Position numbers and translations under genes: made by a program. This document shows positions 2,399 to 35,861 of a DNA stretch of 36,705 nt, one piece after another. Position 1 is the first letter of the stretch. Every line of letters starts with the position of its first letter. The notes under the pieces were generated by a model. That model saw only the letters and a list, made by a program, of their open reading frames with translations. It was not told the origin of the DNA and did no database searches. This DNA comes from a virus. Location of the stretch: the IMG/VR virus record IMGVR_UViG_3300037840_000689, positions 1-36,705 of that record. The stretch is one strand, 5' to 3'.

Positions 2399-2403
2399 CT
2401 TCA

Positions 2404-3813: not shown

Positions 3814-3830
3814 TGGTTGCGAATAGGATT

Positions 3831-3849: not shown

Positions 3850-3936
3850 TTCGACCTATCGACCAATGATGAAGCCGTGCGCTTTTCGGTTCCATTACAG
3901 CGACCGCCGCGCCGGCAACCGGCCCCATTAGACCGT

Positions 3937-4007: not shown

Positions 4008-4009
4008 CC

Positions 4010-11953: not shown

Positions 11954-11990
11954 GCAATAACAATAGCATTTTGATTTTTCGGCGCCTGTG
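11954..11990 (-). promoter_or_regulatory. Phage late promoter copy D (CACAGGC-N18-TATTGT)
   Basis: The - strand holds CACAGGC (11984-11990), an 18-base spacer containing AAAAATC, an extended -10 (TGC-TATTGT, box at 11960-11965), then six bases to the ATG at 11953. This is one of five sites with identical spacing. Confidence 0.6.
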
Positions 11991-12000
11991 CATGCGCTCG

Positions 12001-13479
12001 TCAGCTCCACTGCGAAAAGCCCCAACGCATTGCCGGTGATGCTCCCGGTCCCCATTTGTAGGGTTTCTGCGTGGAGGTCGCGGCAAGAGTGTCAGTGGCG
12101 GTCACGCCTTCCGCGATGGGCTCAAGGTTCTGGGTGACGGTAGAATCGTCCACGGGAGTCTGGTTGGCTTCCTGTTGGAGAAGGGTCGTCATGAGGTCAA
12201 CGAAAGTTACGGTGTCTGAGCCGATGGCCTCGATTTGATACTCAAGGGTGCCCTGTGCGCCTGGGACAAACACCGTTGCCTCAACGCGCTTTATGATGAG
12301 CGGATAGTTGGTGATGCCGAGTTTTGGAGAATTAAGAATGATGGTTTGGCCTATCGTGCATCCGGCGACAAGAGTATTGAACTTTACGTCGTAAACAGAG
12401 TGGCCGAACTGAAGGATCTCGGCCTGTGCTCGCTGTTGTGCTTCAACGACGCTGGAGATTTTAGAATCAACGATTACGTCTTGAAACTCGCCGTAGGTGG
12501 CGATCCCTACCGGGTCTGATGCGTGAGCGACAATAGGGATGGTGGCAGCGCCGAATATTTTTAGAGTGTGTCCTCCTCCGGGATCTGATGTGAATTTTAC
12601 GAACCGGTTCTTGTCGTTGTAGAGCACCTGGACGGTTCCCGGGTCGGTTTGTTGGTCGATCCCAACCGTTTCAGTCGCGCCGTCGAGCGTCACGGTGATC
12701 GTGGACGTTGAGTACGCGTAGCCAATTGCGTAGACGACGGTCCCACTTACAGTCGTGTACACGTCGGGGGTATTTCCTGCAATGAAGGTTTTCGAATACG
12801 TTCCTCCGATAACAAAGACGCTGTTCTTCATGTTTTGAAGATTGCGGGTTACGTCGAGCGAGTTCCACTCGATCTGCCCGCTCGTCTCGTCAATCTTGAT
12901 AGGGGCGGTTGCTCCTTCCCCCACGGCGTTCTCAACATCGCCCAAAAAGAAGTGGATGTCTTTTGATGGGTCTATGTACCAATCCCATCCGATCAGTTTC
13001 GCGAGCGATTCCAAACACTTCGTAGGCTGCTGGTAATTGAACTTGATGGAAGGCACGAGAAAGTTGGCGGTCTGTACATGGTTTGTGGTGAAGCCTTTTC
13101 CCGGAGCGAAATTAGCGACAAGGTCCAGGACGATGTCGTGCGGGTCAATCATGGCGTAGTTTTTTTTGACGAGTGTGCCGTCCAATAAGTAGCTCCAATC
13201 CGTGCACGTGATCTGGTACGTGAGCATGAGTCCCTCCACACTCACTTCGGTCTCGGTGACGGTCCCGCCGAAAATCTGGCCGGAACTGTCAAACATAGTA
13301 ATCGTGTCATTGAGGACCGGAACGGTCTTGACGGGAAAGGTCTGGCCCGCGCCGAGCTTCACATTGAATTTCAGCGTGGAGACTTCTTTTGTGAGAACAG
13401 AAACGAGATCAACGGTGCTCCAATCGACAGAGCTAGAAATATCGGTGCCGTTATCTTTTATTACGACGGGATTTGCCAT
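12001..13479 (-). CDS. Tail hub / baseplate protein
   Basis: The 492-residue protein follows the tape measure gene by one base, the usual place for the distal-tail or hub protein. The N-terminal half has features of hub folds: repeated strands, ITCTDWSYLLDG near residue 90, and CLESLAKLIGWDWYIDPSKDIHFF near 155-180, a segment like the region joining hub domains in gp27/Tal-like proteins. The C-terminal part is a second beta domain with a flexible tail. It would close the tail tube and carry the fibre. No peptidoglycan-cleaving domain is visible. Confidence 0.72.
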   Translation of the reverse strand: MANPVVIKDNGTDISSSVDWSTVDLVSVLTKEVSTLKFNVKLGAGQTFPVKTVPVLNDTITMFDSSGQIFGGTVTETEVSVEGLMLTYQITCTDWSYLLDGTLVKKNYAMIDPHDIVLDLVANFAPGKGFTTNHVQTANFLVPSIKFNYQQPTKCLESLAKLIGWDWYIDPSKDIHFFLGDVENAVGEGATAPIKIDETSGQIEWNSLDVTRNLQNMKNSVFVIGGTYSKTFIAGNTPDVYTTVSGTVVYAIGYAYSTSTITVTLDGATETVGIDQQTDPGTVQVLYNDKNRFVKFTSDPGGGHTLKIFGAATIPIVAHASDPVGIATYGEFQDVIVDSKISSVVEAQQRAQAEILQFGHSVYDVKFNTLVAGCTIGQTIILNSPKLGITNYPLIIKRVEATVFVPGAQGTLEYQIEAIGSDTVTFVDLMTTLLQQEANQTPVDDSTVTQNLEPIAEGVTATDTLAATSTQKPYKWGPGASPAMRWGFSQWS

Positions 13480-13480
13480 G

Positions 13481-15238
13481 CTACGAGGCGTAATTTCTTA
13501 GCTTCAATTGCCTGCCGATTTGCTTGGCGATAGTGTTCGCAATGAGCGTCGCACCTCCTTGGTCAAGGTACATGCCGCCTTGGATATAAACATTGATGCC
13601 TCCGCCTCCCGCGCCAAGAAGTGCGCCTGGAGTCTTCGTCGCAATAAGGAAGTCGGCAGGGTCGGATTGGATGATCTGACCTCCGGGCGTGATGATGGCG
13701 TCGTGGACACCGATTACGGATAGCGCGCCGGAGACGGCACCGCCAGCCGCTTTGCCAAAGGCGGACGCGGCTCCTCCGATTGCGTTCACAGCGGCCAGGA
13801 CGGGTGCGAATACTCCGGTTGCCCACGAGACAAATGTTTGGATGACTCCCGTAATGAAACTTATTGAGCTGGTCAATGCGCCTTTGATGCCATCCCAAAT
13901 GCCAATGAAGTATGAGCTGATCCCACCCCACACCAGATTCCAAAGTGTTTGATAGAACTGAAGGGATGCGTTGAGGTAAGCAGTAATCCAATTGAGAGCG
14001 GACTGTATCGTCTTTTTAATACTGTCCCACACTATGACGAGGAGATCGCTGATTGCCGTCCAGATGGCTTGCATGTCTTCTTTGAGGTTCTGCCAATTCG
14101 CGATGATGACTGCCGCGAGCAGAGCGACGAGGCCGATAAGGAGCGTGAACGGACCGCCGAGAAGTGCGACGATAACCGCGAGGGTACCGAGAATCACGAG
14201 CAAGCTCCCGAGCAAAGTGAGCAAGCCGCCCAAGATGCCGACGAATATGAGGATCGTTTCGGTAAGTTTTTGGTGTCGCTGCGTCCAACCATCAATGCCG
14301 TCGATAATTTTCACAATCCATTGAAGTAATTCCGTCAGCATGGGCATCTGGGTGTTTCCCATGTCGGAGAGAAGCTTGTTGAAACTTTGCATCGCGACGG
14401 AGAGACTGCCGCTTAGAGTTTCTGCGTAGGCTTGCACTTGACCGTTGACCGCGCCTTGGACAGCTTGAAGGGCAGCCATACCGGACAGCCCGTCCTTGAT
14501 CTGGATGCCGTAGGTGGCAAGAGCGCGGCCTTGCCCGTTCATGGCGAGGACCACTTGATTTGTGGCGGTCGCAAGATCGATGTTCTTCGCGCGCGCGAGG
14601 TCCATTGCGGCCTGATTGACCTGCAACGCTTCGGACACACTCTTGGTGGCCGTGAAAGATTGCATCAGACTATTAGTGCTGTCAGTTACGGAAAAACCGA
14701 GTGAGACGTTTGCGTCGGCTTGCGATTCCAGTTTCGCGGTAATTTCATCAACCGACTGACCGTTGAGCTCTTGGGAGTTCGTTAAAATGTCGAGCTGCTG
14801 CTGGTACTTTTGAATATTGAGCTGGTCCGTAGCGATACTTGCAGCGGCTTTTGCGTGGGAAGCGGCTGACTTTTCGACCGATCCGGTATGCGTGTCAAGC
14901 GTGGCCGTTGCTTCGGCGATGCTCGCCTTGTATCCATTGATCTTATCTTGGAGAAAGGCGACCTGGGTGGCATAGGAACTCGTAGAATCTGCTGCGCCCG
15001 CCATAGCATCGGTCACCGCTTGTTTCAAGCTGTCCTGGGATTCCTGGACGCTTGCTGCTGAATCGACGACGCCGACATACACGGCAGTAATTGCGGCACC
15101 GGCAATGCCAATCTGAATCCCGGCACTGATGGCCTCCTGGCCAACCTGTCTTAAATTATTCTGAGCACCGGAAAGCGCCGAGGCCGATTCGTCAACCGCT
15201 TGGATAAGAATTTCTAGGACGGATTGCGATGCGGCCAT
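13481..15238 (-). CDS. Tape measure protein
   Basis: This 585-residue protein combines long helical/coiled segments (residues about 60-310, rich in Ala, Gln and Ser) with a hydrophobic block near 325-395 and a Gly/Ala-rich C-terminus. This pattern defines tape measure proteins that set tail length and help DNA entry. By the usual rule of about 0.15 nm per residue the tail would be near 90 nm, consistent with a siphovirus. It lies after the chaperone genes and before the hub, the standard order. The leader has no Shine-Dalgarno sequence. A small membrane-peptide gene is inserted just upstream. Confidence 0.9.
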   Translation of the reverse strand: MAASQSVLEILIQAVDESASALSGAQNNLRQVGQEAISAGIQIGIAGAAITAVYVGVVDSAASVQESQDSLKQAVTDAMAGAADSTSSYATQVAFLQDKINGYKASIAEATATLDTHTGSVEKSAASHAKAAASIATDQLNIQKYQQQLDILTNSQELNGQSVDEITAKLESQADANVSLGFSVTDSTNSLMQSFTATKSVSEALQVNQAAMDLARAKNIDLATATNQVVLAMNGQGRALATYGIQIKDGLSGMAALQAVQGAVNGQVQAYAETLSGSLSVAMQSFNKLLSDMGNTQMPMLTELLQWIVKIIDGIDGWTQRHQKLTETILIFVGILGGLLTLLGSLLVILGTLAVIVALLGGPFTLLIGLVALLAAVIIANWQNLKEDMQAIWTAISDLLVIVWDSIKKTIQSALNWITAYLNASLQFYQTLWNLVWGGISSYFIGIWDGIKGALTSSISFITGVIQTFVSWATGVFAPVLAAVNAIGGAASAFGKAAGGAVSGALSVIGVHDAIITPGGQIIQSDPADFLIATKTPGALLGAGGGGINVYIQGGMYLDQGGATLIANTIAKQIGRQLKLRNYAS

Positions 15239-15259
15239 GTGGTGCGGAGAATAGTGTGG

Positions 15260-15379
15260 TTAGGAATGAAGCCAATCTTCTAAAGATCGGTGTGCTCGGT
15301 TCGCGAGACGGAACATCTTGATAACGAACGCGAGGCCAACGATACCGAAGAAAATTACTAGGAAGATGAGGACAGCCAT
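15260..15379 (-). CDS. Small single-span membrane peptide (39 aa)
   Basis: This short gene lies between the tail chaperones and the tape measure. It encodes one strong membrane helix (MAVLIFLVIFFGIVGLAFVI) followed by a basic, positively charged tail ending in DWLHS. An AAGGTCG element sits 24 bases upstream of its ATG, as with four other genes here. Its function is unknown; a holin, spanin or tail-associated membrane peptide is possible. The clean membrane design and the shared leader element support it being real. Confidence 0.6.
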   Translation of the reverse strand: MAVLIFLVIFFGIVGLAFVIKMFRLANRAHRSLEDWLHS

Positions 15380-15403
15380 TGATTTTGTTGATTATTTTTT
15401 TTT

Positions 15404-15410
15404 CGACCTT
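15404..15410 (-). promoter_or_regulatory. AAGGTCG leader element 2
   Basis: AAGGTCG is followed by a run of A and lies 24 bases before the start of the 39-residue membrane peptide gene. Confidence 0.4.
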
Positions 15411-15450
15411 ACTTAACTAATGCCACAGTCACGGATTTTTGGCAAACAGC

Positions 15451-15968
15451 TCACTTCTTGTTTCGGCGGTTCGCTTCGTCCGTTTCCTCACGCAACATGC
15501 TGACGATCATCTGAATGAACCAGTGGGGTTGTTCTTGGTAGGTATACCAGTCCCAACCGAATTCACGGCAGATAAGCGCCGCGACCTGTTCCGGGTAAAG
15601 TTCGGCACGTCCGAGGGAGAAGAACTCGTGCCAGCGTAGTGCTACTTCTCCCTCTAAAAATTTCCGCTCGCGAGTTCCTTGACTTCGTTGAGGATCGCGG
15701 TGTACTCGGATGCAGGAAGGTCCTGCAACCGTTCGGCAAGATTCTCGGTCGAATCGTCAAGCGATACGACGGCGGCTTCTACGAGCTTGATGTTGCGCTC
15801 GATGCCGACGAGAAGCGAAAGCTTCTGATTGGCTCCCTGCTCTGCGGAGACGGACTGGTCGGCGAAGAGCACCTTGAGCACGCCGTTCACCTCGCGGGCG
15901 GTGAGATAACTTTTTACGGTTACTTTGTGACCGCCCGGCGTGATGAGGTCTTTGGTTTCTCTGTCCAT
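15451..15968 (-). CDS. Tail assembly chaperone fusion made by -1 frameshift (gpGT-like)
   Basis: The second frame (15451-15657, 68 codons) has no start codon of its own and is entered from the upstream chaperone frame at 15654-15968 by a -1 shift at A AAT TTT (15657-15663). The product would be 172 residues: the first protein to Phe104 and then LEGEVALRWHEFF onwards, with GWDWYTYQEQPHWF and a charged end ENRRNKK-like. This is the classic lambda G/GT arrangement, in which a small share of ribosomes make a longer chaperone that binds tape measure and tail tube. Length, order and position between tail tube and tape measure genes all fit. Confidence 0.82.
15654..15968 (-). CDS. Tail assembly chaperone, unshifted form (gpG-like)
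   Basis: This 104-residue acidic protein ends at the stop just after the slippery site. It has helical segments (NGVLKVLFADQSVS, ASEYTAILNEVKELASGNF), the usual composition of tail chaperones. It lies directly after the tail tube gene. It would coat the tape measure during tail assembly and is absent from the finished virion. The ATG is 18 bases after an AAGGTCG element and has no conventional ribosome-binding site. Confidence 0.82.
   Translation of the reverse strand: MDRETKDLITPGGHKVTVKSYLTAREVNGVLKVLFADQSVSAEQGANQKLSLLVGIERNIKLVEAAVVSLDDSTENLAERLQDLPASEYTAILNEVKELASGNF
15657..15663 (-). other. Programmed -1 ribosomal slippery heptamer
   Basis: On the - strand the zero-frame codons GGA AAT TTT TAG contain A-AAT-TTT, which fits the X XXY YYZ slippery rule. 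Slipping back one base before the stop reads TTA GAG GGA and continues 68 codons in the chaperone T frame. Confidence 0.8.
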
Positions 15969-15986
15969 TCGTGAAGATGTGGATTT

Positions 15987-15993
15987 CGACCTT
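15987..15993 (-). promoter_or_regulatory. AAGGTCG leader element 3
   Basis: AAGGTCG lies 18 bases before the tail chaperone start codon and just after the tail tube stop codon, in the short gap between the genes. Confidence 0.45.
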
Positions 15994-16001
15994 GAGAAAA
16001 A

Positions 16002-17195
16002 TTAGTAGCTTGCAACGGTATTCGTCACCGTGATTTTTGCCATCTCGGAGTTCGTAAGCGAGTAGGTCGCTTTGAACTTGAGCGTCTGCGCCACGAGGTC
16101 GTTCAATTTGAACGGTCTGCTGAATTCGGTGAAGTACACCTGGTCCAACAGGATCGTGACTTCCGGATGCGACGGCACGACGCCGATGGAGACATCCGTG
16201 TTCTTGAGGTCAATGAGAAGCGACTGAGACACGGTGGGCGTCGCGAGCGCGACGGTCTTGAAGTCTGACTCGTTCTGGAAAAGCGCCGTGAGCGTTCCTT
16301 CGATCTTGAACTGCTTGTTCAAGAAATCTATCGGGGCCACGGAACCGAGCACGTCGTCGTCCTCGATACTTTCGTCAATCGAGAGTTTGAACGATTTGAG
16401 TTTCACGATCGCGCCGTTAAAGGTCATCGTGCCGATCGCCCCGGTCGTCGCAACAGAAAGGTCAAACGACGAAGCGGTCACAATTGCCGCAATCGTCGCT
16501 CCTACCGGAAGATTCGTAGCCGAGACGCGCATACCGACGTTCAAGAGCGTGGTGCTGATGCTGAGGCCCGTGACGTGAATCGTGCTCGCTGCGGTTCCGG
16601 TCGCGGTAAGCGTGCCGTTCACGCCTGCGGTTGACGGCGCGTAGGAGAACGTCATGTACTGGGGCAGGAAACGATTTTCGGCGACCATCGCGACGGTCGC
16701 GGCTTGCGCCACACCTTTGAGCGCCTTGACGCTCATGGTGATGTCCGCGAATTTCTTCAGCTCCACGTCCAAGTCAAGCTTGTGTATCACGCCGAGCGAG
16801 TACACATAATCCACGGAAGTTAGAGCGTCGTTGATGAAAAACGAAAGCGACTGGTGCTGGGCGGTTTCGCCAACGGTCGCTTTATGATCGTAGACCGCCG
16901 ATTCGCCCGCGTGCGTGCTGTCCGCGTTCGCACCGAAGATCGCGAAGAACAAAAGTGGAAGTGACTGATCGGTGAGAGGGACCTTCACGGTACCTTCGAC
17001 ATAGTTCTTCGTGCGGTACTGCGCGGTGGAATCTTCGATGATCGCGAACGATTCGTCCTGGGTTACGTTTTCAAATTTCTCTTCAAGTGAAGCCTCGCTG
17101 AACGGGAGCCAATATGACGCCGATCCAACCGCCGTGCCGCGCGTCGTTTCCTTCGCGATGCCGACTGACTGTAGGCGTCCAATTCCTTTTGCCAT
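16002..17195 (-). CDS. Major tail tube protein
   Basis: The 397-residue protein begins MAKGIGRLQSVGIAKETTRG, a common opening of siphoviral tail tube proteins. The rest is beta-rich, with a Ser/Thr/Ala-rich insert near 195-265 that resembles an added Ig-like surface domain. It would polymerise as stacked rings forming the tail tube. Its position between the tail terminator region and the chaperones is standard. The ATG is two bases after the preceding gene and the leader is A-rich without a Shine-Dalgarno sequence. Confidence 0.85.
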   Translation of the reverse strand: MAKGIGRLQSVGIAKETTRGTAVGSASYWLPFSEASLEEKFENVTQDESFAIIEDSTAQYRTKNYVEGTVKVPLTDQSLPLLFFAIFGANADSTHAGESAVYDHKATVGETAQHQSLSFFINDALTSVDYVYSLGVIHKLDLDVELKKFADITMSVKALKGVAQAATVAMVAENRFLPQYMTFSYAPSTAGVNGTLTATGTAASTIHVTGLSISTTLLNVGMRVSATNLPVGATIAAIVTASSFDLSVATTGAIGTMTFNGAIVKLKSFKLSIDESIEDDDVLGSVAPIDFLNKQFKIEGTLTALFQNESDFKTVALATPTVSQSLLIDLKNTDVSIGVVPSHPEVTILLDQVYFTEFSRPFKLNDLVAQTLKFKATYSLTNSEMAKITVTNTVASY

Positions 17196-17197
17196 AA

Positions 17198-17455
17198 TTA
17201 TGTGTTATTGGTTTGTTCTGGTTCTGCGACCTTTGGCTCCGGTTTGACCGGCTGTCGCTGTATCTTCCAAAGCTCCAGAGCTTCCTCGTTCGTGGAAGCG
17301 ACAATACTGATGGCGAGGTATTCACCGTCTGCGGGAAAGTGGTAACGGTTTTTTATCTGAGATACGGCGCTGATGGTCGTGCCCTTCGGGATCGAAATAT
17401 CTTTGTTCTCCGTTTCGGGGATATCCATCTTGTTTTTGAGGTTTGGTATTTCCAT
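17198..17455 (-). CDS. Small phage protein, unknown function
   Basis: This 85-residue hydrophilic protein has a charged N-terminus, a central strand-rich part (GEYLAISIVASTNEEALELW) and a Pro/Glu-rich tail. No family is recognised. It sits two bases before the tail tube gene and 23 bases after the -10 of promoter copy C, so it may be the first gene of a transcript carrying tail tube and chaperones. A structural or assembly role is likely from position only. Confidence 0.6.
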   Translation of the reverse strand: MEIPNLKNKMDIPETENKDISIPKGTTISAVSQIKNRYHFPADGEYLAISIVASTNEEALELWKIQRQPVKPEPKVAEPEQTNNT

Positions 17456-17509
17456 GCTGAATGCTGAGGTTTGAACTTAGTGTAGCATTTGCGATTTTGC
17501 AGGCCTGTG
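17456..17509 (-). promoter_or_regulatory. Phage late promoter copy C (CACAGGC-N18-TACACT)
   Basis: CACAGGC is at 17503-17509, an 18-base spacer with AAAATC follows, then TGC-TACACT (box at 17479-17484). The distance to the ATG at 17455 is 23 bases, so a short leader without a Shine-Dalgarno sequence is expected. The -35-like part overlaps the end of the tail terminator gene region. Confidence 0.6.
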
Positions 17510-17514
17510 GATTG

Positions 17515-17988
17515 CTAGTTGGCGGATTGAACAGCGCCGGGAACGAGCTGGCGGGCCTTCAAGGTAATGTAAAAAACTACGTAGGTATTGGTACCGCTAT
17601 TTATGGGACCGGGCGGCTCAAGGATCGCCGGAAGAACACCGCCGATAGAGGTTCCCTGAAGCGTGCAATCAAGGTCAAAAACGTTCAAGACGGAATCGAG
17701 CAAGCCTTCGAGATAGGTAGGGTCAGTCTTCGAAATGTTGTCCGGGGTGGTAACAACCATGATGTACCACGTGTAATCGCGGAGATTGTTGGCTTGGTCT
17801 TCGTACACGGAAGTTGTTACGGTTGGTGGAATTACGACCGCCGATGGGAATCCCGGCCAGTCGCGGTCAAGTGGCGAGACTTTCGTCATGTCATCCGCGA
17901 GAACAAATCGGAGCGTGCCACTGTCAACTAGCGACTGGAGATCGGCTATGATCGCGGTTTTCATTTGTTGGGCGTAGGACTGGCTCAT
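17515..17988 (-). CDS. Tail terminator / tail completion protein
   Basis: This 157-residue protein starts in an ATGA overlap with the gp10-like gene. Predicted alternating strands (AVVIPPTVTTSVYEDQAN, DYTWYIMVVTTP, TYVVFYITLKARQL) and its position just before the tail tube gene match the lambda gpU / gp11-type tail terminator group, which caps the tail and joins it to the head. There is no unique signature, so the call rests on order and size. Confidence 0.68.
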   Translation of the reverse strand: MSQSYAQQMKTAIIADLQSLVDSGTLRFVLADDMTKVSPLDRDWPGFPSAVVIPPTVTTSVYEDQANNLRDYTWYIMVVTTPDNISKTDPTYLEGLLDSVLNVFDLDCTLQGTSIGGVLPAILEPPGPINSGTNTYVVFYITLKARQLVPGAVQSAN

Positions 17989-18458
17989 GCGCCTTGTGCC
18001 TGTGACGCCACCTGCGCCGTAATTTTGTCCAGTGCCTGAACGAAGAGCGAATCCACGTCCGGCTGTGCAGCGGCCACGATGCGCTCCATGAAGGGATTCG
18101 CTTTGGTGCCGGGGTGATGGACTATGGTCCCGAAGATCTGTCCAGTTCGTGGATTTGCAAGGACGCGAGCATTAACCGGCACGATGGTGTGCGGGGCGGT
18201 GCCGAACTCAACGTAGGGTGCGTAGGAAGCTTTTGGATACCAGCGCGCCGTGTACTGTCCCACTTCGAATCCCCAGTTCTGGACGAGATAGCCGGTCAAC
18301 ACGGGCACTGTGCTTGCGGTCGTGTACTTAGCGAGAAGCGCCTGCGATCCGACGACGGCGCTCTGAATTATGGGGGCGGCTATCGCTGGGTAAACCGCGA
18401 GTGCCGCTTGAAGAGCGGGAAGATTTGGGATGGTTATTTTGAATTGGGTTTCGGGCAT
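17985..18458 (-). CDS. HK97 gp10-like head-tail connector component
   Basis: The 157-residue protein carries the family hallmarks YAPYVEFGTAPHTI near residue 79 and HHPGTKANPFMERIVAAA near 114-131, typical of HK97 gp10 / minor tail protein family members. It follows the gp6-like connector by two bases and overlaps the next gene by four. It would take part in head-tail joining or tail completion. Confidence 0.88.
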   Translation of the reverse strand: MPETQFKITIPNLPALQAALAVYPAIAAPIIQSAVVGSQALLAKYTTASTVPVLTGYLVQNWGFEVGQYTARWYPKASYAPYVEFGTAPHTIVPVNARVLANPRTGQIFGTIVHHPGTKANPFMERIVAAAQPDVDSLFVQALDKITAQVASQAQGA

Positions 18459-18460
18459 GG

Positions 18461-19129
18461 TTAAAATGCGTTGCCGACGCGCTTATAGTTTTGAATTGTC
18501 TCTTTATCAAAGGCGTCAAGCTGATCCCGCCACGATGTGGTAGCGCCCTGAATCGCTTCGCTTGCTTTACCCTCAAGCATTCGGCGCTTATAAATTCGTA
18601 CGACGATGTTTTCGCAAACGTCGGTGAGATCTGCGGGAAGGCGGTGAAGCGCGGGATTGCCGGCGCTTTCCCAAGCTATCAGATAGCCTGCCGTGTACGT
18701 CGCCCGGAGCATGTTGGAATAAAGGCGCGGCATGGTGCCGTAGACCCGGATAATGCCGGATGTTCCGTCCTCCACAAGTTCGAACTGATCGGGAATGAAG
18801 TCCGTCCAGTTCGGATTGCTCGGTGTTCCGGCGCGCCACTGGAAGGAAGTCAAGGCGCTCACGGGGGCGTTGCGCAAGACAAGGAATTGCTGGCGAGCGC
18901 CGTTCACGCCGTAAACCTCGTTTGTGTAGGTCTTGCTCATGAAGTGACCGTCGTTCGGATACTTCTCAAGGCCTGTCTTGCCGCACTCGCGCTCGATGTA
19001 ATCGGACGCGCCGTTTATGAAGCGGATGAGCTTCGCATCGTTGTCGCTGATTGAAATATCCAAACGGTCCTTGACGCGAGCCAAGGTCGTAAGCGCATAC
19101 GGGACTACTTGTTCTTGAACGGTGGGCAT
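18461..19129 (-). CDS. gp6-like head-tail connector (adaptor)
   Basis: This 222-residue protein begins with a helical segment (LTTLARVKDRLDIS, then DAKLIRFINGASDYIERECGK) that is characteristic of HK97 gp6-like adaptors, which form a ring under the portal. A beta insertion follows (about 65-150), and the C-terminus is helical again (DVCENIVVRIYKRRML). It lies after the capsid and a small structural gene and before gp10, the standard order. The start is preceded by a strongly folded leader. Confidence 0.82.
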   Translation of the reverse strand: MPTVQEQVVPYALTTLARVKDRLDISISDNDAKLIRFINGASDYIERECGKTGLEKYPNDGHFMSKTYTNEVYGVNGARQQFLVLRNAPVSALTSFQWRAGTPSNPNWTDFIPDQFELVEDGTSGIIRVYGTMPRLYSNMLRATYTAGYLIAWESAGNPALHRLPADLTDVCENIVVRIYKRRMLEGKASEAIQGATTSWRDQLDAFDKETIQNYKRVGNAF

Positions 19130-19187
19130 GTTGCCGAGGATTTATCCTCGCGGCATCCCATGTGCCGCCGTCCTGTCGGTCGGCAAC
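19130..19187 (-). promoter_or_regulatory. Structured leader before the connector gene
   Basis: Three inverted repeats overlap: outer arms 19130-19137 and 19180-19187 (GTTGCCGA with TCGGCAAC), a seven-pair repeat at 19135-19150 next to the start codon, and GCGGCA/TGCCGC at 19150-19168. The outer and inner folds share bases, so they are mutually exclusive. Such a switchable fold could control initiation of the connector gene. Confidence 0.45.
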
Positions 19188-19216
19188 ACACGAGATGGGA
19201 GCGAAGATTCAAATAG

Positions 19217-19672: not shown

Positions 19673-19843
19673 TGAATTAATGTTTGGCCCCTGCCTTCCT
19701 TCGACTTTAATCGGAAGGGAAGAAGTATCGGAGAATGTTCATCCCCAGATAGTTCAACGGGCGGTTTATTTACTGATTGCTGTTCCCGTGAGGCCCGATT
19801 CCCTGCCGAGGAAAGACAGAGAACCGGACGTTCACAAAAGCTA

Positions 19844-21097: not shown

Positions 21098-21122
21098 TTT
21101 TTAAGTTAGGAATTCAAATGGT

Positions 21123-22619: not shown

Positions 22620-22672
22620 TTCCTCCTAATTCGGAAGGTTTGGTTTGGGAAGGTCGCTGCTTACTACCATAT

Positions 22673-23254: not shown

Positions 23255-23258
23255 GGAT

Positions 23259-23312
23259 TTAATTATTTGAGACGACCTTTTCCGCTACTTGAAGGACGAT
23301 ATTTTTCTTCAT
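23259..23312 (-). CDS. 17-codon leader frame (possible leader peptide)
   Basis: ATG at 23312 opens MKKNIVLQVAEKVVSNN and stops at 23259, four bases before the start of the next gene. The start lies six bases after the -10 of promoter copy A, so it would be the first codon of a leaderless mRNA. Its N-terminus (MKKN) resembles that of the next protein (MKKD). It may couple ribosome entry to the downstream gene or be an unintended open frame. Confidence 0.45.
   Translation of the reverse strand: MKKNIVLQVAEKVVSNN
23273..23279 (-). promoter_or_regulatory. AAGGTCG leader element 4
   Basis: AAGGTCG lies 18 bases before the start of the signal-anchored protein gene and inside the 17-codon leader frame. 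Confidence 0.45.
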
Positions 23313-23349
23313 GGCTTCAGTTTAGCAAATGGGATTTTCGGAGCCTGTG
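23313..23349 (-). promoter_or_regulatory. Phage late promoter copy A (CACAGGC-N18-TAAACT)
   Basis: CACAGGC (23343-23349), an 18-base spacer with GAAAATC, and TGC-TAAACT (box 23319-23324) are followed after six bases by an ATG at 23312, so transcription should begin at or beside that codon. Confidence 0.65.
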
Positions 23350-23357
23350 GATAGCGC

Positions 23358-23696
23358 TTAGTTAATCGTTTTGGGAAGCGTCGGGTTCACGATGATCGTA
23401 ATGCCGGGATAGCTCACCGGACCGGCTGCGAATGTGACAACGATCTCCGCGAGATAGGTTCCAGGGTTCGGAAAATCGCCGGTCACAACAGCGTAATGGC
23501 ACGTTCCAGCGCTTGCGCTGTCAACGGACATCGCATGGCTGAAAAGAAGCGTCTGTGTGGCGTCCTGTGCCGACTGGACATTGAGCAGCAACGTAGCGCC
23601 ACTCAAATTGAGCGCGTTGCCGTTGCCGTCTTCAAGGGTGAATGGGATGTTGTACCCGTAGTTCCCCTGAACGATTTGAATGGGTTGGATGATCAT
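23358..23696 (-). CDS. BppU-like beta-sandwich virion protein
   Basis: The 112-residue protein has the pattern of the BppU N-terminal domain / Ig-like phage module: QGNYGYNIPFTLEDGNGNALNLSG near the N-terminus and then alternating strands (ATLLLNVQ, CHYAVVTGDF, TYLAEIVVTF). This domain normally attaches baseplate or fibre proteins to the virion. It is a single domain with no extension. It lies in the block between portal and protease, close to lectin-like and repeat proteins, so it may help anchor them. Confidence 0.65.
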   Translation of the reverse strand: MIIQPIQIVQGNYGYNIPFTLEDGNGNALNLSGATLLLNVQSAQDATQTLLFSHAMSVDSASAGTCHYAVVTGDFPNPGTYLAEIVVTFAAGPVSYPGITIIVNPTLPKTIN

Positions 23697-23709
23697 AGTT
23701 TTAGTGGAT

Positions 23710-24894
23710 TCAGAGTTCTAACGTGGTGTTGAGATTTTGTGGGTCGGTGAGCGTTGTGGATTTATTGGTATCGGTGAGCGTGGTGGTCGCGGGACCGATT
23801 AGAATGACAGTGTTCTTCCAGAGAAGTTTAAGGATATTTGCCGCGCCGTAGAGACCTTTCAAGATCGTCATTCCAATTTTTATCGGAATGCTGATAAGGA
23901 AAGATTCGATGACGCTGAAGGTCTCGCTGAGGTTTTTGGTAAATCCTTTATTGAGTATATCGCTCAGCGAAATTGCGTCAATAAACGACCGGAAAAGCGA
24001 TTTTGTGAGCGCGATGGTTTCGGAGAGCGAGAGTTGGTCCGCAAAGGAGTTGCTGGCGGTCCTTGCGAATGATTCAGAGATTGTCACAGTGTCGGAAAGC
24101 TGTCTCACTACGCCCTTGACGATGGCCTCAATGATCGAAAGCGAGTCGGTCAGAGCGCGACTTAGGCTTTTTCCAAACAATTCCGCGACATTGATCGTGT
24201 CCGCGAGCATCCTGGCAAGTGAACGGGCGAGAATATCCGTAATCGCAAATGTCTCCGTAACCACTTTGCCCGCGATCTTCGAAATGGAATCAGAAAGAGT
24301 GAGCGTTTCGACGAAGGACCTCACAAATTCCCTCACGATAGTGACCGCTTCATTCAACGTGATGGAGTCCGAAAGAAACCTGCTTATGGATTTTGCGAAG
24401 GATTCGGAGAGCGTGATGACCTCCGTGAGCGCCTTGCCGCACAGCTTTACGATTCCGGAATCGGCAACGGTGAGAGTTTCCAGGAAGGATTTACCCGGTT
24501 GCTTGGATATCGCGTCGCTGAGTGAAAGAGCGTCCGTGAGCGATCGCGCCAGCGTCCAGAGAAAGCTTTCCGCAATCGGCACCGTTTCCGTGAGAGCTTT
24601 GCCGCACTGCCGCGTTATCGCTTCGGAAATTGAAAATGCTTCGCTCAGCGCTTTGCCTGCCTGCTTCGCGACGGAATCGGATAATGAAATGGTGTCGCTG
24701 AAAAATACGGTGACCGAATAGACGAGCGATTCAATGACCGTGATGGTTTCGGCGAGAACCTTTTGAGGCCCTCGTGCCAGCGTGTCGGCAAGCGAAAACG
24801 TCTCGCTCAGCGAGAGGGTGTGGAGCGTTCCGCTGCTCGCCATGCCCGCTTTGATAATTGGCCTGAACGGTTGGGATCTTCCTAGACGTGCCAT
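23710..24894 (-). CDS. Tandem-repeat fibre-like protein (about 17 repeats of 18 residues)
   Basis: This 394-residue protein consists almost entirely of a repeat of about 18 residues, from residue 24 to 330. The approximate consensus is LTETxTLSDSxxKxxGK, for example ALTETVPIAESFLWTLAR and SLTDALSLSDAISKQPGK. About 17 copies can be counted; a few are 19-20 residues. Each has Leu/Ile/Val on a regular spacing and a basic residue at the end. A solenoid or extended fibre is likely. The N-terminus (MARLGRSQPF) resembles that of the next upstream protein, and the C-terminus is a Thr-rich tail. There is no known enzyme motif. It would suit an adhesin stalk. Confidence 0.75.
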   Translation of the reverse strand: MARLGRSQPFRPIIKAGMASSGTLHTLSLSETFSLADTLARGPQKVLAETITVIESLVYSVTVFFSDTISLSDSVAKQAGKALSEAFSISEAITRQCGKALTETVPIAESFLWTLARSLTDALSLSDAISKQPGKSFLETLTVADSGIVKLCGKALTEVITLSESFAKSISRFLSDSITLNEAVTIVREFVRSFVETLTLSDSISKIAGKVVTETFAITDILARSLARMLADTINVAELFGKSLSRALTDSLSIIEAIVKGVVRQLSDTVTISESFARTASNSFADQLSLSETIALTKSLFRSFIDAISLSDILNKGFTKNLSETFSVIESFLISIPIKIGMTILKGLYGAANILKLLWKNTVILIGPATTTLTDTNKSTTLTDPQNLNTTLEL

Positions 24895-24895
24895 A

Positions 24896-26098
24896 TCAGT
24901 ACGTGCCCGCTCGGTTTACGGCTTGGCCCGCGACGAGGACCTTGCTCAAAATGGCCGGGTCGTAATCTATCGTGGCCCAGACCTTGGTTACGTCGATGCG
25001 ACGGCCGCTTGTTCCCGGACCGGTCGTGAGCTTGTAACCGATCTGCATCGTATTGAGTGTGCTTTGTACCCATGGATTGCCATCGGGGTCGTTGTAGAGA
25101 GTGATGGCGTATCCGAACGCCGTCGTTGTGCCATTGGTTTTCCAGGTCGTTGAATTGGGAATGATTGCGGAACTTTGGGTAATGGTTCCCGAACCGGTCT
25201 TTTCGACCTCTGCTTTGATTGCGGCGGTCGCGTCCGCGGTGCTGTTGCGGAACCGAAAACCTATCTGCACGACTTTGACGGTATCAAGAGGGCTGAGGCC
25301 GGAAGCGCCACATTTGAAAAGATCTTCCTGATTGAGCGTGCTCGATCCGTTGAAACTCGTGGCATCGTCGGGCGTGACCTCGTCCACGCGGGTGAAGTTG
25401 TTGGAAGATCCGGCAGTGCCGCCGGTCTGCGTCGCAAATGTGTTCACGTCTCCTGCGGCGTTGGGAAGAAGGCTGATTACTTTACCCGGTCCGGGATAGC
25501 TTGTTTGACTTGCGCCTGAAGTATCATTGATAGCCCAGTCGTCGTAAAAGAGATTCATGGTCGCTGAGGTCAGCGGATTACCAAGATAGAAGGAATCGAA
25601 GTTATTTACGGTGGCTGTGGCAGACCCCGCGAATTGAACGCCATCCACTCTTCCATTGAGTGTGGCGGTTCCCGATCCGCCGCTCACGTCCATTTCCAGG
25701 CAGTACCATTGGCCCGTGAGCAGCGTCGGGCCATTCGACCCGATTTGTGTACCGCCCGGGCCGTTCGTCAACAGTTGGACAACACCGGCGCTCGTCACGC
25801 AAATGGCCGCGCGGACTGCCACGGCTACCGAGTCGAAGGCGCTTACTACTTCTGTGGTTGCGCCGGGAAAAGTAGTGAAGTTCACATATACTCGGCAAAA
25901 GGCTTCCGTGCTGCTTGACGAGCTTTTAATCACTTGTCCGAACCAAGAAAAAGAAGCCGACACGTTGATCTGCATGGATGCCGCGCCGCTGCGGAATGTG
26001 GACGTGCTGATTCCGCCGCCGTTCAAACCCGCCTTCGCGAATTCAATCCCGGCGGTGGCGCTTTGAAGTTCGAAACCTGATGTCCAGAGGCGCGCCAT
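24896..26098 (-). CDS. Concanavalin A / LamG-like lectin-fold virion protein
   Basis: The protein begins at ATG 26098 (400 residues); the longer open frame upstream is a shadow of the neighbouring gene. A lectin/laminin-G-like beta sandwich occupies about residues 1-210, seen from GQWYCLEMDVSGGSGTATLNG followed by FDSFYLGNPL and FYDDWAIND. A second beta domain follows to the end. It probably binds sugars or another surface. It is followed after one base by the repeat protein, with which it shares an MARL start, so the two are likely coexpressed partners. Confidence 0.72.
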   Translation of the reverse strand: MARLWTSGFELQSATAGIEFAKAGLNGGGISTSTFRSGAASMQINVSASFSWFGQVIKSSSSSTEAFCRVYVNFTTFPGATTEVVSAFDSVAVAVRAAICVTSAGVVQLLTNGPGGTQIGSNGPTLLTGQWYCLEMDVSGGSGTATLNGRVDGVQFAGSATATVNNFDSFYLGNPLTSATMNLFYDDWAINDTSGASQTSYPGPGKVISLLPNAAGDVNTFATQTGGTAGSSNNFTRVDEVTPDDATSFNGSSTLNQEDLFKCGASGLSPLDTVKVVQIGFRFRNSTADATAAIKAEVEKTGSGTITQSSAIIPNSTTWKTNGTTTAFGYAITLYNDPDGNPWVQSTLNTMQIGYKLTTGPGTSGRRIDVTKVWATIDYDPAILSKVLVAGQAVNRAGTY

Positions 26099-26115
26099 TT
26101 CCTTATTGCGCCCGG

Positions 26116-26616
26116 TTAAATATCCAAGATGACGTAGCAGTAGCAGTTGACGGCGGTTCCGGCAGTCACGCGGATGCGGAGCGCGCTCGCCGCGTTCACG
26201 ATTGGTTCCCGTCCGAGCGGGAATTGTTTGACGTATTGGTTGGTGGGCGCGACAAGCTGAAAATCCATTTCCCGTGTCGCCGTGGTGCTCCCTTCCCCGG
26301 TGCTCGTATAGCCGGTTGCGGTTGTGCCGACAACGATGTATGCGGTGGTTGGGTCTTGTTCGAGGGGATTGAGGCGCGTGATGTCGGCGGCGACGGATGC
26401 CGTTACCGTCGCAAAGACCGTGCCGGTTTCGACGAGTTCGCATTCGATGGGCGTCGCTGCGGCGCTGCCGTCAAAGCTGATGCCCCATTCCACCACCTTG
26501 CCCGTAACGCCAGAAGCAAGCTTCACTTGAAGCATTGTCTTGATCGCCGTGCCGGTCGTCACCTTGACGGGCGCTGCGGTGGTTGGCATTGCGCCGTTTT
26601 GGATGAGGACGAGCAT
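26116..26616 (-). CDS. Beta-rich virion protein, unknown
   Basis: This 166-residue protein is rich in Val, Thr, Ala and Gly, consistent with a small beta-barrel structural protein. Readable segments are VEWGISFDGSAAATPIECELVETGT and SALRIRVTAGTAVNCYCYVILDI at the end. Similar short proteins occur as phage decoration or fibre-associated subunits. No catalytic motif is visible. It lies three bases after the previous gene and shares its transcript. Confidence 0.6.
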   Translation of the reverse strand: MLVLIQNGAMPTTAAPVKVTTGTAIKTMLQVKLASGVTGKVVEWGISFDGSAAATPIECELVETGTVFATVTASVAADITRLNPLEQDPTTAYIVVGTTATGYTSTGEGSTTATREMDFQLVAPTNQYVKQFPLGREPIVNAASALRIRVTAGTAVNCYCYVILDI

Positions 26617-26619
26617 GGG

Positions 26620-27423
26620 CTAGGTCTGGTATTTGTGCGTAACTTGGAGAGAGTCCCCGTTCGCAACATTCACAACCGAAAAACCCTGGTGCGCGAGGAG
26701 GTTGTTGCCGTTCGCGGTGATGTCGTTCAACGTCGTGCCGCTCGCGTGAGACGCGGCGCTCGTTCCCTTCTGCGCCCGGACGATGGTGCTGAACGTGCCC
26801 GATCCGCCGCCTGCCGTGACCTGGATGATCTCCTGCTCCCACTGCAAGAAGTCGTTGTTCACGAATCCGGTACCGCTCGCAACGGTCACGCTCGTATCGC
26901 CCGCTACCCGTGATTGCGTCGTGGTCGTTTGGACCGGCGCGGTCGTGCCGTCAAAGATTCCTTCCTCCGTGATCGCGAACGCGGTCGTAAAATTCCAGGT
27001 GTGGACGAGTTGAGTGGTGTCATTCGTCACGCTCGTCGTTACTTGAGAGGCGGTCGCCGCAACGCGGTTGCTGCCGTTGCCGGTCGCTTCAATGAAAAGG
27101 GCCATGTCGGTCGCGCCAACGGAAAGCGTCCCGGTGCCGAGGGCAAGATTAGTGAACGGGTTGTACGAACCTTGGTTCGACATTCGCCCGTTCGCTCCAG
27201 CGTGGCCGACGTTGGTGATTATGTTGTGGATGCGGAGAACGGTGACGAAGACGCCGGTGACGAACGTTACTCGGGTGACAAAGCCGAATTTCTGGCGTAA
27301 GAATCTGCCGATAAAGTTCTCACGCCAAAGCGGCTTGATGTTACCGTCGTTGTCGCGATGGACGATCTCCGTCGTGACCTCGCGCGTTCGGATTCTTTCT
27401 GACTTATTCCTCAGTGCCTCCAT
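26620..27423 (-). CDS. Virion structural protein with a fibre-type C-terminal module
   Basis: The 267-residue protein has an N-terminal part of charged helices and a Gly/Thr/Val-rich rest. The C-terminal portion reads AGDTSVTVASGTGFVNND, QWEQEIIQVT and STIVRAQKGTSAASHASGT, a repeat-type module common in tail and fibre proteins (an E-I/V segment followed by RG-QGT-AxxH). The middle has layout similarity to the tail-tip protein at 11387-11953. It overlaps the gene at 27404-27730 by 20 bases. Confidence 0.65.
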   Translation of the reverse strand: MEALRNKSERIRTREVTTEIVHRDNDGNIKPLWRENFIGRFLRQKFGFVTRVTFVTGVFVTVLRIHNIITNVGHAGANGRMSNQGSYNPFTNLALGTGTLSVGATDMALFIEATGNGSNRVAATASQVTTSVTNDTTQLVHTWNFTTAFAITEEGIFDGTTAPVQTTTTQSRVAGDTSVTVASGTGFVNNDFLQWEQEIIQVTAGGGSGTFSTIVRAQKGTSAASHASGTTLNDITANGNNLLAHQGFSVVNVANGDSLQVTHKYQT

Positions 27424-27730
27424 CTTTTGTGGGCATTAGTTTTTCGACGATTTGGTCCGCGAGTTCCGACGCCGCTTCGTTGCCCGCGTTGGCTTTACGG
27501 CCATCGATGTCGTTCTGAAGGACTTGGGCTTGCCGGTCGAAATACGCTTGAGGATTTTCAGGATCAATCTCGTCCGGGCGCTGAGCGTAGGTCTGGGTGT
27601 GGTAGAGCGTGCCATCGTCATTGTGGAATTCGACGGTCGTTACGACGACAAGAGTGGGCTCGTCCTGATTCGTGGCGACGTTGAACTGCGGGAGGGTCTG
27701 CTTTTCAGCAGTAACGATTACGGCTTTCAT
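27404..27730 (-). CDS. Small protein after the portal gene, unknown
   Basis: This 108-residue protein has an N-terminal strand region (TLVVVTTVEFHNDDGTLYHTQTY) and a charged, helical C-terminus ending in EKLMPTKDGGTEE. No family is recognised. Its ATG lies seven bases after the -10 of promoter copy B, so it may be read from a leaderless message. It begins the block of beta-rich proteins downstream of the portal. Confidence 0.6.
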   Translation of the reverse strand: MKAVIVTAEKQTLPQFNVATNQDEPTLVVVTTVEFHNDDGTLYHTQTYAQRPDEIDPENPQAYFDRQAQVLQNDIDGRKANAGNEAASELADQIVEKLMPTKDGGTEE

Positions 27731-27768
27731 TGCTTTAACTGTAGCAAACGGGATTTTGAGAGGGTGTG
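27731..27768 (-). promoter_or_regulatory. Phage late promoter copy B (CACACCC-N18-TACAGT)
   Basis: CACACCC (27762-27768), an 18-base spacer with CAAAATC, and TGC-TACAGT (box 27738-27743) precede the ATG at 27730 by seven bases. It follows directly after the portal stop codon, so it starts a transcript for the downstream block. Confidence 0.6.
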
Positions 27769-27775
27769 GATAGCG

Positions 27776-30079
27776 TCAAATTGCGACATCCTCGGGCCGC
27801 GCGAAACACCGGCAATTCGGGTGAAGCGGCGGCGCGCCCACGTCGCCGTAATCCATCGTCATCGTTTGCGCGTCGTCGCCTTCGCCCACGGAAAGCGTTT
27901 GCCCGGCATCAAAGAAGTTCTGATCTATCGAAATGACCTTGCCATCCATCGCTTGACAGTAAGGGCAAACGGCTTCGTTTTCGGCGGTGTGCCATTTAAT
28001 CGTCTTTACGACGCCGGATTGTTTCCATGTTTCTTTGAGCGCGGCGTTGGTCGTCCTGAACGCCTCGGTCTGAGCGACGCGGTCGGCGCGCGCCGTGTCG
28101 CTCCATTCGTAAATTTCGCTTACGGTCTTGCTGATGTCCGGCAAACTTGCGCCGGTTGAAAGCCCGTCATTGATCTTGGTCTCCAATGTGTCAAGGGTCG
28201 TCTGCTGGTAGCTCTTCGCCATCATGCTGACGGACTGATGCAACATGGCCCGTGCCGTCTCTGAGAGAGGATTCAAGTCGGGCATTTCAAGCGCGTCGGC
28301 GGCGATCTTCCCTTCGGAGGTGAAGAGGTCTACGAAGATAGGTTCCATTGCGTCGGTCGTGATAGAGATCCAATTGTCTAGGTTGAAAAGGTCTTTGGGG
28401 TCTATCGCTTTCTCGATGGCGGTCGGAAGATTCTTGAGGACCTCGGCCTTCTGTTTTTCGTTCAAACGCCGGACTTCGGCTTTGATCGTTTCTTCGGCTT
28501 TGCGCGTCCGTTCGTCGAACGCTTTCCACACTGCCTGGTCTTCTTCCTTCGTTGAAAACTTGCGCGTGGGGTTGGTAATCGCTTCCTTGACAAGCGCCGC
28601 GATCTTCACGCCAAGCCGGTCGCCGATTGCTTTGCGCTCTTTCGCGCGCTTCTGAAGTTTCGTGCGTGCGGGGATGAAAGCTACCTTCTGACTGCTTGCC
28701 TTTGCCGGTGGCTTCGGAGGCGGTGCCGGAGGGTCGGCGGGTTTAGGCGCATTTGCCGGTTGCATTGCGGTGGGTGACATGAGCGCATCGCCGCCGTCAA
28801 CCGGACCCAAACCCATGAACTCTTCGCGCGCCTCGTCCACGGTAAGGACCGGGACTCCGCCAACGGCGGTCTTCATCTCCTCGGTGCGCGCGGCGCGGTC
28901 TTCCGGCACGGGGTCGTTGAACGTGATGTAGAGGTCATCGCCGTAGCGGGGGACAAGTTTCTCGTTGAGGAACGAACAGATGAGCTGCATGTGCGGCTTG
29001 ATGACGCGCTTGGAGAAAACGTAATCGGCGGTCTCTGCCGTCGCGCGATTGGTATCGGATTCTGCCGTGCCGAGAATTGTGCGGGAGACGCCGAACATGG
29101 CAAGGATGCGCTCGCGCGAATCCTCCGAGAGATTCTTGAAGTCCATGTCCTTCGGGCTCGTGCCGGCGGACTGCCACTCAACGTCTTTGGGCAGTACGGC
29201 GATGCCGTTCATGTTGGCGATGCCGCCGTGCTGATTCGTGAATCCGGCTTTGAGAACTTCGAGCTGCGCTTCTGCCGTGAATTGGGTTTTGAGGAATCCG
29301 GAAGGCCGCGCGCCACTCGCGAAGAACTTGCGATTGAACTCCATCGCGTAGTTATCGTTATCAATGTATTCAGCACCAGCTTGGACGGGGCTGTAACCCT
29401 CGTACATGTTGAGCGGGTCGGGCAGGCGGAAGTGGAGGATCTGGTACGGCTGGAAAACCAGTTCCTTCGTTTCCAGTTTCATCTTGTAGCCGGTGACTTT
29501 GTACGGCCACGTGGTCTTGTCAAGCGTTGGCCGGACTTTGCTCGGGTCCATCGGATAGATCGCGGTGGGCTTACTGAGGTCGTCCTTGACGCCTTCCAAA
29601 TACCAGTAAGCGTTTCCAGTGAGATAAAGATGGGCGGATAGGAGATACTTGAGTTCCGGCCCGGTCATGGAATCGTTCACGCTGTCCAACAGGTCAAGGA
29701 CATCGTGTTCGTCCTGCTCCTCCGGGCCATCCTCCTGGACTTCAAACAAGCGCCACTCGATGTTCATGACTTCGCGCGCGATGGCGTTGACGGACGCGTA
29801 GACGAAGCCGGTGTTGTTCGCTAACGCTTTTGCGGCGTCAATGTGATGACCGCCGGAAGGACGTTCAATGGCGAACTGGCTTGAGCCGGTGCTGATGTCA
29901 GCGAATTGTCCGCCTACACTCTTCACGAGACCGAATCGGTTGAACGTGATCCCGCGTTCCTGGGAATACACCTCGGGCTCTATGCGCATGAACTTCGGAG
30001 CGAGTGCGTTAAACGTGCGGAGTGCCCAGCTCGGTTTGTTCTTCGCGGTGAGGGATGTGGGGGGACGTTCCTGCGCCAT
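27776..30079 (-). CDS. Portal protein fused to a Mu gpF-like head protein
   Basis: The 767-residue protein joins two usually separate genes. Residues about 40-400 form an HK97-type portal (NAIAREVMNIEWRLFEV, LTGNAYWYLEG, LHFRLPDP), which is the DNA-entry ring. A Pro/Ala-rich linker (about 425-455) leads to a helical region and then a Mu gpF / SPP1 gp7-like domain at about 660-767, recognised by RVAQTEAFRTTNAAL, a CPYC pair at 705-708 and HPNCRC at 753-758. That minor head protein is normally separate and is injected or guides packaging. The fusion forces equal amounts. It lies downstream of the terminase genes in the standard order. Confidence 0.88.
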   Translation of the reverse strand: MAQERPPTSLTAKNKPSWALRTFNALAPKFMRIEPEVYSQERGITFNRFGLVKSVGGQFADISTGSSQFAIERPSGGHHIDAAKALANNTGFVYASVNAIAREVMNIEWRLFEVQEDGPEEQDEHDVLDLLDSVNDSMTGPELKYLLSAHLYLTGNAYWYLEGVKDDLSKPTAIYPMDPSKVRPTLDKTTWPYKVTGYKMKLETKELVFQPYQILHFRLPDPLNMYEGYSPVQAGAEYIDNDNYAMEFNRKFFASGARPSGFLKTQFTAEAQLEVLKAGFTNQHGGIANMNGIAVLPKDVEWQSAGTSPKDMDFKNLSEDSRERILAMFGVSRTILGTAESDTNRATAETADYVFSKRVIKPHMQLICSFLNEKLVPRYGDDLYITFNDPVPEDRAARTEEMKTAVGGVPVLTVDEAREEFMGLGPVDGGDALMSPTAMQPANAPKPADPPAPPPKPPAKASSQKVAFIPARTKLQKRAKERKAIGDRLGVKIAALVKEAITNPTRKFSTKEEDQAVWKAFDERTRKAEETIKAEVRRLNEKQKAEVLKNLPTAIEKAIDPKDLFNLDNWISITTDAMEPIFVDLFTSEGKIAADALEMPDLNPLSETARAMLHQSVSMMAKSYQQTTLDTLETKINDGLSTGASLPDISKTVSEIYEWSDTARADRVAQTEAFRTTNAALKETWKQSGVVKTIKWHTAENEAVCPYCQAMDGKVISIDQNFFDAGQTLSVGEGDDAQTMTMDYGDVGAPPLHPNCRCFARPEDVAI

Positions 30080-30083
30080 TCGT

Positions 30084-30491
30084 TTATTGAGGAATTATTT
30101 GTCCCTGCTGAATGGCGAACGAAGCGACGCCGTCGTTCTCCTGTGCGCTTACGCCTTTTGAGCGCGAGTATTCGCACGCAAGGGGGATGTCGAGCGTGAG
30201 GGGGTCAAGCAAAACTATGGTGTGGCGCTTGGTTGTTGCGAGCGGCATAGAGCAATGAGGACAGAGCAAGATGATCGCGTCGTAGTCGGGCCAGCGCGGT
30301 TCAAACTCCTCGCGGAAGTCGAACTTCGCGCCGATTAACGTCCAGATGAGTTTCTTGAAAAATCCGCGCGGCGGATCTATCGGCCTCGTGACGACGGTGC
30401 GCATCGGTTCACGCTTTGCGATGTAAACAAAATCGCCGGGGCTTGCGAGGTCTGCGGACGAGGGGACACGACGGAGGTCGATAGCTTCCAT
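30084..30491 (-). CDS. Small phage protein with a CxxC metal motif
   Basis: This 135-residue protein has an internal CPHC pair near residue 77 with a following histidine (KRHTIV) and Cys107, a likely metal-binding site. The N-terminal half is a mix of strands and basic segments (KREPMRTVVTRPIDPPRGFF). No family is known. It lies between the terminase and portal genes and ends four bases before the portal start. A promoter of the late family (copy E) precedes it. An adaptor or regulatory role is possible. Confidence 0.65.
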   Translation of the reverse strand: MEAIDLRRVPSSADLASPGDFVYIAKREPMRTVVTRPIDPPRGFFKKLIWTLIGAKFDFREEFEPRWPDYDAIILLCPHCSMPLATTKRHTIVLLDPLTLDIPLACEYSRSKGVSAQENDGVASFAIQQGQIIPQ

Positions 30492-30537
30492 GATGGGATT
30501 AACTTCACTTTAACAAATGAGAATGTATAGGCAAGTG
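30492..30537 (-). promoter_or_regulatory. Phage late promoter copy E (CACTTGC-N18-TAAAGT)
   Basis: CACTTGC (30531-30537), an 18-base spacer, and TGT-TAAAGT (box 30507-30512) precede the ATG at 30491 by 15 bases. It is the most divergent of the five copies. It lies in the divergent gap opposite the start of the + strand gene at 30579. Confidence 0.5.
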
Positions 30538-30578
30538 GACAAGCACAATGCTAGAGTCCTGCACGATAAGGACGGGGC

Positions 30579-35833: not shown

Positions 35834-35861
35834 ATTCTAGCGCGCCGCCATAACCTGTCAA
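35834..35861 (-). promoter_or_regulatory. Sigma-70-type promoter of the right-end operon
   Basis: The - strand reads TTGACA (35856-35861), a 16-base spacer and TAGAAT (35834-35839). It is the best consensus promoter in the window and would start transcription near 35827. Confidence 0.75.

Follow-up and report, generated by a model that had tools for sequence, protein, structure and literature searches.

Some bacteriophages switch on a class of genes through an activator that works with the sigma70 holoenzyme of the host; the late promoters of P2 use Ogr in this way, and those of Mu use C. Thermus phages P23-45 and phiYS40 reportedly make leaderless messages and use extended -10 promoters, and we know of no DnaA-like box in these phages. 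The middle promoters of T4, with MotA/AsiA, and the late promoters of N4, with its SSB, are also activator-dependent and are read by sigma70 holoenzyme (PMC5312081). Short sequences repeated beside phage genes include the Start-Associated Sequence (SAS) of cluster K mycobacteriophages, which contains a Shine–Dalgarno (SD) sequence and lies 3-7 bp before the starts of non-structural genes (PMC3203893). In bacteria, TA-led genes carry TANNNT about 12 bp before the start codon, and three of three Acidobacteria genomes are predicted to be leaderless-positive, with a mean of 13.3% (PMC3160421). For Acidobacteriota phages, no published promoter class was found in the literature searched. Here we describe a family-wide late promoter of these phages, whose unusual box matches the DnaA consensus and whose leaders are predicted to be very short or absent.

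The window analysed here is the whole 36,705-nt stretch of IMGVR_UViG_3300037840_000689, a 36.7-kb virus record with a tyrosine integrase on the + strand at its left end. The head and tail genes occupy the - strand, beginning with terminase (32919) and reaching the tail fibre region, and PHROGs and NCBIfam matches delimit a late transcription block at 10011..32919 (-). This block contains genes for the terminase large subunit (31447-32919), portal (27776-30079), prohead/capsid proteins (21123-22619 and 19844-21097) and tape measure (13481-15238), all on the - strand, as well as connectors, tail and tail fibre. The right end of the window (36457-36705) falls inside a NinG-like gene, whose NinG identity was inferred from its cluster; because the record ends within this gene, the provirus boundary is not a true end and most early genes are absent from the window. 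We found 34 IMG/VR loci with portal relatives, mostly 55-65% identical to the window portal. The only close relative in a bacterial genome lies inside a contig of 232 kb from a MAG that is labelled Acidobacterium sp. palsa_291 (Acidobacteriota), and weaker portal matches occur in the same order. The phage family that carries the late promoters in question is temperate and, judging from this integrated relative and the weaker matches, its members probably infect Acidobacteriota soil bacteria. Beside the integrase, the left end carries AIPR, TIR-domain and BamHI-like restriction genes on the + strand (1145-4866) that look like defence cargo, adjoined by an N6/N4 DNA methylase gene (4863-5741). 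In related (pro)phages, the gene for a Replic_Relax protein neighbours that for an FtsK/TraG-like ATPase (L100:2984-5225 and relatives), a plasmid-like module that is unusual for siphovirus-type prophages. An Rfam scan of the window gave no match.

The initial annotation, made from the letters alone, had described five - strand sites in which CACAGGC or a variant precedes an extended -10, and all five are present as described. Promoter 1 (30507..30542, -; box TTGTCCACT at 30534-30542, -10 TAAAGT at 30507-30512) has a -35-like TTGCCT at a 16-nt spacer and stands before the gene 30084-30491, which precedes portal and whose ATG at 30491 lies 15 nt downstream of the -10. Promoter 2 (27738..27773, -; box CTATCCACA at 27765-27773, -10 TACAGT at 27738-27743) precedes the gene 27404-27730, which is predicted to be leaderless, its ATG at 27730 lying 7 nt past the -10. 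At promoter 3 (23319..23354, -; box CTATCCACA at 23346-23354, -10 TAAACT at 23319-23324), the ATG at 23312, 6 nt past the -10, opens a 17-codon ORF that is followed by the gene 22673-23254. Promoter 4 (17479..17514, -; box CAATCCACA at 17506-17514, -10 TACACT at 17479-17484) leads, with an ATG at 17455 that is 23 nt past the -10, into a small tail gene (17198-17455) and a tail protein gene (16002-17195). Promoter 5 (11960..11995, -; box GCATGCACA at 11987-11995, -10 TATTGT at 11960-11965) precedes a tail-fibre-like gene (11387-11953) whose ATG at 11953, 6 nt past the -10, is again predicted to be leaderless. Exactly 18 nt separate CACAGGC, CACACCC or CACTTGC from TAnnnT in all five sites, TGC or TGT precedes the -10, and the A-tract in the spacer is found in four of the five; these features, and the three closest ATGs, are as the initial annotation had them. 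Outside the late block, a contrasting ordinary promoter (35834..35861, -; TTGACA-16-TAGAAT) leads into the AAGGTCGAAA leader of the gene 35404-35793.

The sites are statistically distinct and are conserved in relatives. With leave-one-out matrices, the withheld site ranked 1, 1, 1, 1 and 2 of about 73,350 positions. A matrix scan had been proposed as a check, in which hitting coding sequence as often as intergenic sites would count against the family; coding sequence was not matched in the window, the weakest of the five sites scoring 33.2 bits and the next place only 9.3 bits. A strict pattern, itself drawn from the sites, gave three matches versus 0.02 expected. The proposed scan of related phages recovered sites at orthologous places: iterated over 1.03 Mb of related phage DNA, the matrix converged on 20 distinct sites, every one of which has an ATG 6-23 nt downstream, and the motif is kept across dozens of related viruses. 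Site 11960 is orthologous to L053:11470, L065:11552 and L115:11165, site 17479 to L053:6068, and site 30507 to promoters in L008, L127, L068 and L018, with orthologous genes downstream in each case. The ortholog of site 23319 is L052:19236, where a leaderless ATG starts the gene itself and the downstream gene is again orthologous. The post-portal site 27738 is matched by promoters in the equivalent position of L005, L014 and L064, where the gene that follows is a different one. These orthologous positions hold across 40-80% amino acid identity, in flanks that have diverged. On phage contigs found later, which were collected with major head and tail genes, the frozen matrix gave 10 matches, nine of them before an ATG, while neither of two control matrices gave any and 1.13 M host positions contained none; two of the ten (in L182) were not fully blind, because this contig had already surfaced as L043 in an exact-pattern scan. 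The combination of box, -10 and ATG gave 14 matches versus 1.4 +/- 1.2 for permuted boxes. In IMG/VR, two large contigs (136 and 234 kb) also matched the exact pattern, which we take as chance.

Box promoters are concentrated in late DNA. Where terminase and tail could both be placed in a phage record, 32 of the 34 box promoters lie between these genes on the late strand, a segment making up 28% of sequence space (p about 5e-16, with sites that shared ancestry makes non-independent). The architecture was not enriched in 31 host-order genomes, which gave 12 matches and a similar number for the reversed pattern. A host promoter class was rejected, as the pattern was no commoner than this reversed control and the extended matrix matched none of the 1.13 M host positions. 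The family thus holds up as late and, with respect to the sampled host DNA, phage-specific.

We found that the conserved unit is longer than CACAGGC, extending 5-6 nt further upstream (GTWATC-CACA). The box, TTATNCACA, ends 20-25 nt before the extended -10 (TTTGCTAnnnT), and TTATNCACA (with N being G, A or C) persists in the -35 region of divergent versions, as seen upstream of orthologs in about 25 phages; the window boxes are one or two mismatches away from it. Counting only perfect matches that stand 20-25 nt ahead of a -10 with an ATG after it, we obtained 17, versus 0.5 expected. Raw genome-wide counts of TTATNCACA are weak (rank 13 of about 300 permuted words), and the decisive evidence for the box is its position relative to the -10. 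One-mismatch copies adhere strictly to TNCACA and are loose in the first three positions. A second cluster of forward boxes occurs at gaps of 33-34 nt, about one helical turn further upstream, and an inverted TGTGCATA is found at about 30 nt in the pre-portal promoter of several phages, cases that may trace back to a single event. Of 65 promoters, 8 have a TTG -35 with a spacer of 16 nt, as TTGCCA in some. Across 20 family sites the extended -10 has TA and the final T in all 20, the G in 16 and the T before it in 19. The proposal that CACAGGC replaces TTGACA was therefore half right: something other than TTGACA does occupy the -35 region, but the extent of the box, its shifts and inversion, and the TTG at 16 nt indicate that CACAGGC combines the right half of a box of the activator type with a degenerate -35 and is not a new -35 hexamer.

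These sites are probably activator-dependent late promoters of the sigma70 type, a reading in which start sites, activation and the use of the housekeeping sigma are deduced from sequence. In this mechanism, host RNA polymerase with its housekeeping sigma would read the extended -10, and a DNA-binding protein on the directional box, which spans about -45 to -34 and has the consensus GTTATNCACA(A/G)GC, would recruit polymerase and stand in for a good -35 hexamer. The majority of late operons have the box, so that a single factor would turn on the head and tail genes jointly. RNA synthesis would begin 6-9 nt after the -10, leaving leaders that are absent or very short (mostly 0-12 nt) and lack an SD sequence, and Acidobacteriota ribosomes would accept such messages.

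The initial annotation had named a sigma factor and an activator as alternative readers of CACAGGC, and our results favour the activator. Taken alone, the constant spacing in the window would be compatible with a sigma factor that reads an unusual -35 as well. Such a sigma factor, either alternative or encoded by the phage, for which the CACAGGC region would be the -35 element, gains from the exact 18-nt spacing of the five window sites, from a -35 region conserved in place and from a strictly late gene class, yet we consider it unlikely. The -10 has the common extended sigma70 form, the box is kept while its distance varies (20-25 nt, with a second cluster at 33-34 nt) and is sometimes flipped, some promoters have TTGCCA at a spacer of 16, and no sigma gene was detected, all of which suits an activator better. 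Sigma70_r2 (PF04542) was found in 11 of 14 control genomes and was absent from 19 phage records, some of them possibly fragments; nor did any of 124 early-region proteins have this domain among its leading Pfam matches. Against an alternative sigma of the host stands the lack of enrichment in host-order genomes. A sigma54 promoter was rejected, as GG/GC 10 bp apart (-24/-12) fails, AA occupying the positions ahead of TTTGC at which the -24 GG would be expected.

The box could instead be an operator, comparable to the stoperators of cluster A mycobacteriophages: a prophage repressor bound to it would mask the -35 at each late promoter and so silence late genes in the lysogen. A short, asymmetric, phage-specific box, mostly in one orientation and scattered over intergenic sites, would suit such a role; we nevertheless regard it as highly improbable, since the box is confined to the late block when repressor sites would be expected at early promoters too, it replaces a good -35 in most sites and so leaves a promoter that is weak without help, and no classical repressor HTH was found in the early regions. 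That chance or DNA duplication produced five sites without promoter function is a natural worry for sites that were picked by eye, but the leave-one-out ranks, the out-of-sample recovery with zero control matches and the orthologous conservation amid diverged flanks make it scarcely credible. For the activator itself, no conserved candidate was found among the early-region proteins of relatives, which include primase, SSB, NinG, exonuclease, Replic_Relax, FtsK/TraG-like proteins and unknowns, and HTH regex scans of early regions revealed nothing conserved; a gene for a phage sigma factor or activator could nevertheless have escaped these searches, given that early genes are absent from the window and that several of the related records are fragmentary.

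Considering that the box, at the level of sequence, is identical to the DnaA-box consensus (N free), DnaA is the boldest candidate for the activator. Host DnaA, or a protein copying its specificity, might bind the box over late -35 regions and recruit RNA polymerase, which would fit the sequence of the box and its constancy across phages. We hold this only tentatively, and think it more likely wrong than right by some way, because a constitutive host protein alone explains neither late timing nor lysogen silence. If true, a DnaA switch would tie virion production to phage DNA replication. A phage-encoded DnaA was rejected: Bac_DnaA_C (PF08299) is absent from the phage records, several of which are fragments, and present in one copy in the host MAG. 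With oriC as a test of host DnaA specificity, no box cluster was found near dnaA in nine genomes. In three host-order genomes (L269, L270 and L271, around 1501-1530), a conserved triple box TTATTCACA-TTGTCCACA-TTATCCACA lies beside an rsmH-like gene; it is not a recognised oriC, and DnaA control of a cell-division cluster is possible. Among the phage relatives are TTATGCACA promoters.

Leaderless starts are predicted at a minority of sites, about one third: an ATG lies 6-7 nt after the -10 in 10 of 29 family sites with an ATG, and the others lie mostly at 11-25 nt. Of the three leaderless starts claimed for the window, those at 11953 and 27730 open full genes, whereas 23312 opens only the 17-codon ORF (23312-23259, -; MKKNIVLQVAEKVVSNN and a stop), and the gene 22673-23254 begins 4 nt after its stop. 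This ORF, which contains AAAGGTCG, may be a leader peptide, a coupling cistron or the remnant of a duplicated gene. Using simple ORF calls as gene starts, we found SD sequences in 9.0% of phage genes versus a background of 9.6%, and TAnnnT at -12 in 22 versus 5.8; in an Acidobacteriota genome the values were 34.6% versus 9.8% for SD sequences and 9 versus 1.4 for TAnnnT at -12. The -12 peak in this genome, together with the three predicted leaderless-positive genomes of the phylum, suggests that leaderless starts follow the habits of the host. Leaderless messages had also been offered as the explanation for missing SD sequences; they account for part of the sites, but the lack is phage-wide and some SD-less genes carry a leader element of another kind, AAGGTCG.

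A second conserved start-associated element consists of AAGGTCGAAA, then 14-23 mostly A/C-rich nt, then ATG. In the window it occurs at 35819-35810, 15993-15984 and 15410-15401 (-), and the shorter AAGGTCG at 23279-23273, 17233-17227 and 8698-8692 (-). About 20 related phages contain 38 non-redundant copies of AAGGTCGAAA, 34 with an ATG at 12-24 nt; 564 kb of host DNA contains two, neither with an ATG at that distance. Of 1118 phage ORFs, 53 are preceded by AAGGTCG and 0-6 by control words; no host ORF among 229 has AAGGTCG before it. Its distance from the start is too great for pairing as an SD sequence, and the element is possibly a novel leader or translation signal.

Together, these data make three questions testable: the identity of the late-gene activator, the possible use of a replication initiator as a late switch and the mode of translation start in SD-poor phages. 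Like the T4 middle, P2, Mu and N4 promoters, the late promoters described here combine a poor or absent -35 with a sigma70-type -10 and a short upstream box that is conserved among several promoters of one phage; they would likewise be switched together, and they share the extended -10 with T4 middle promoters. They differ in that their box is the DnaA-box consensus, unrelated to those sites as far as we are aware, and in that their transcripts are predicted to have leaders of mostly 0-12 nt. As in DnaA boxes, the CACA end is strict and the first three positions are loose; the boxes described here differ in occurring singly in each promoter, at a nearly fixed place relative to the -10, before late genes only and in no oriC cluster. 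As in TA-led genes, late sites can place the -10 6-7 nt before the ATG with no SD sequence, but here such sites belong to a repeated, phage-specific late promoter with a second box. Leaderless messages and extended -10 promoters are also what is reported for P23-45 and phiYS40, which are other phages of other hosts. Finally, the late motif resembles the SAS in being repeated, directional, next to start codons and almost absent from the host (PMC3203893), whereas it is a promoter, and the AAGGTCG element is the closer analogue of the SAS.
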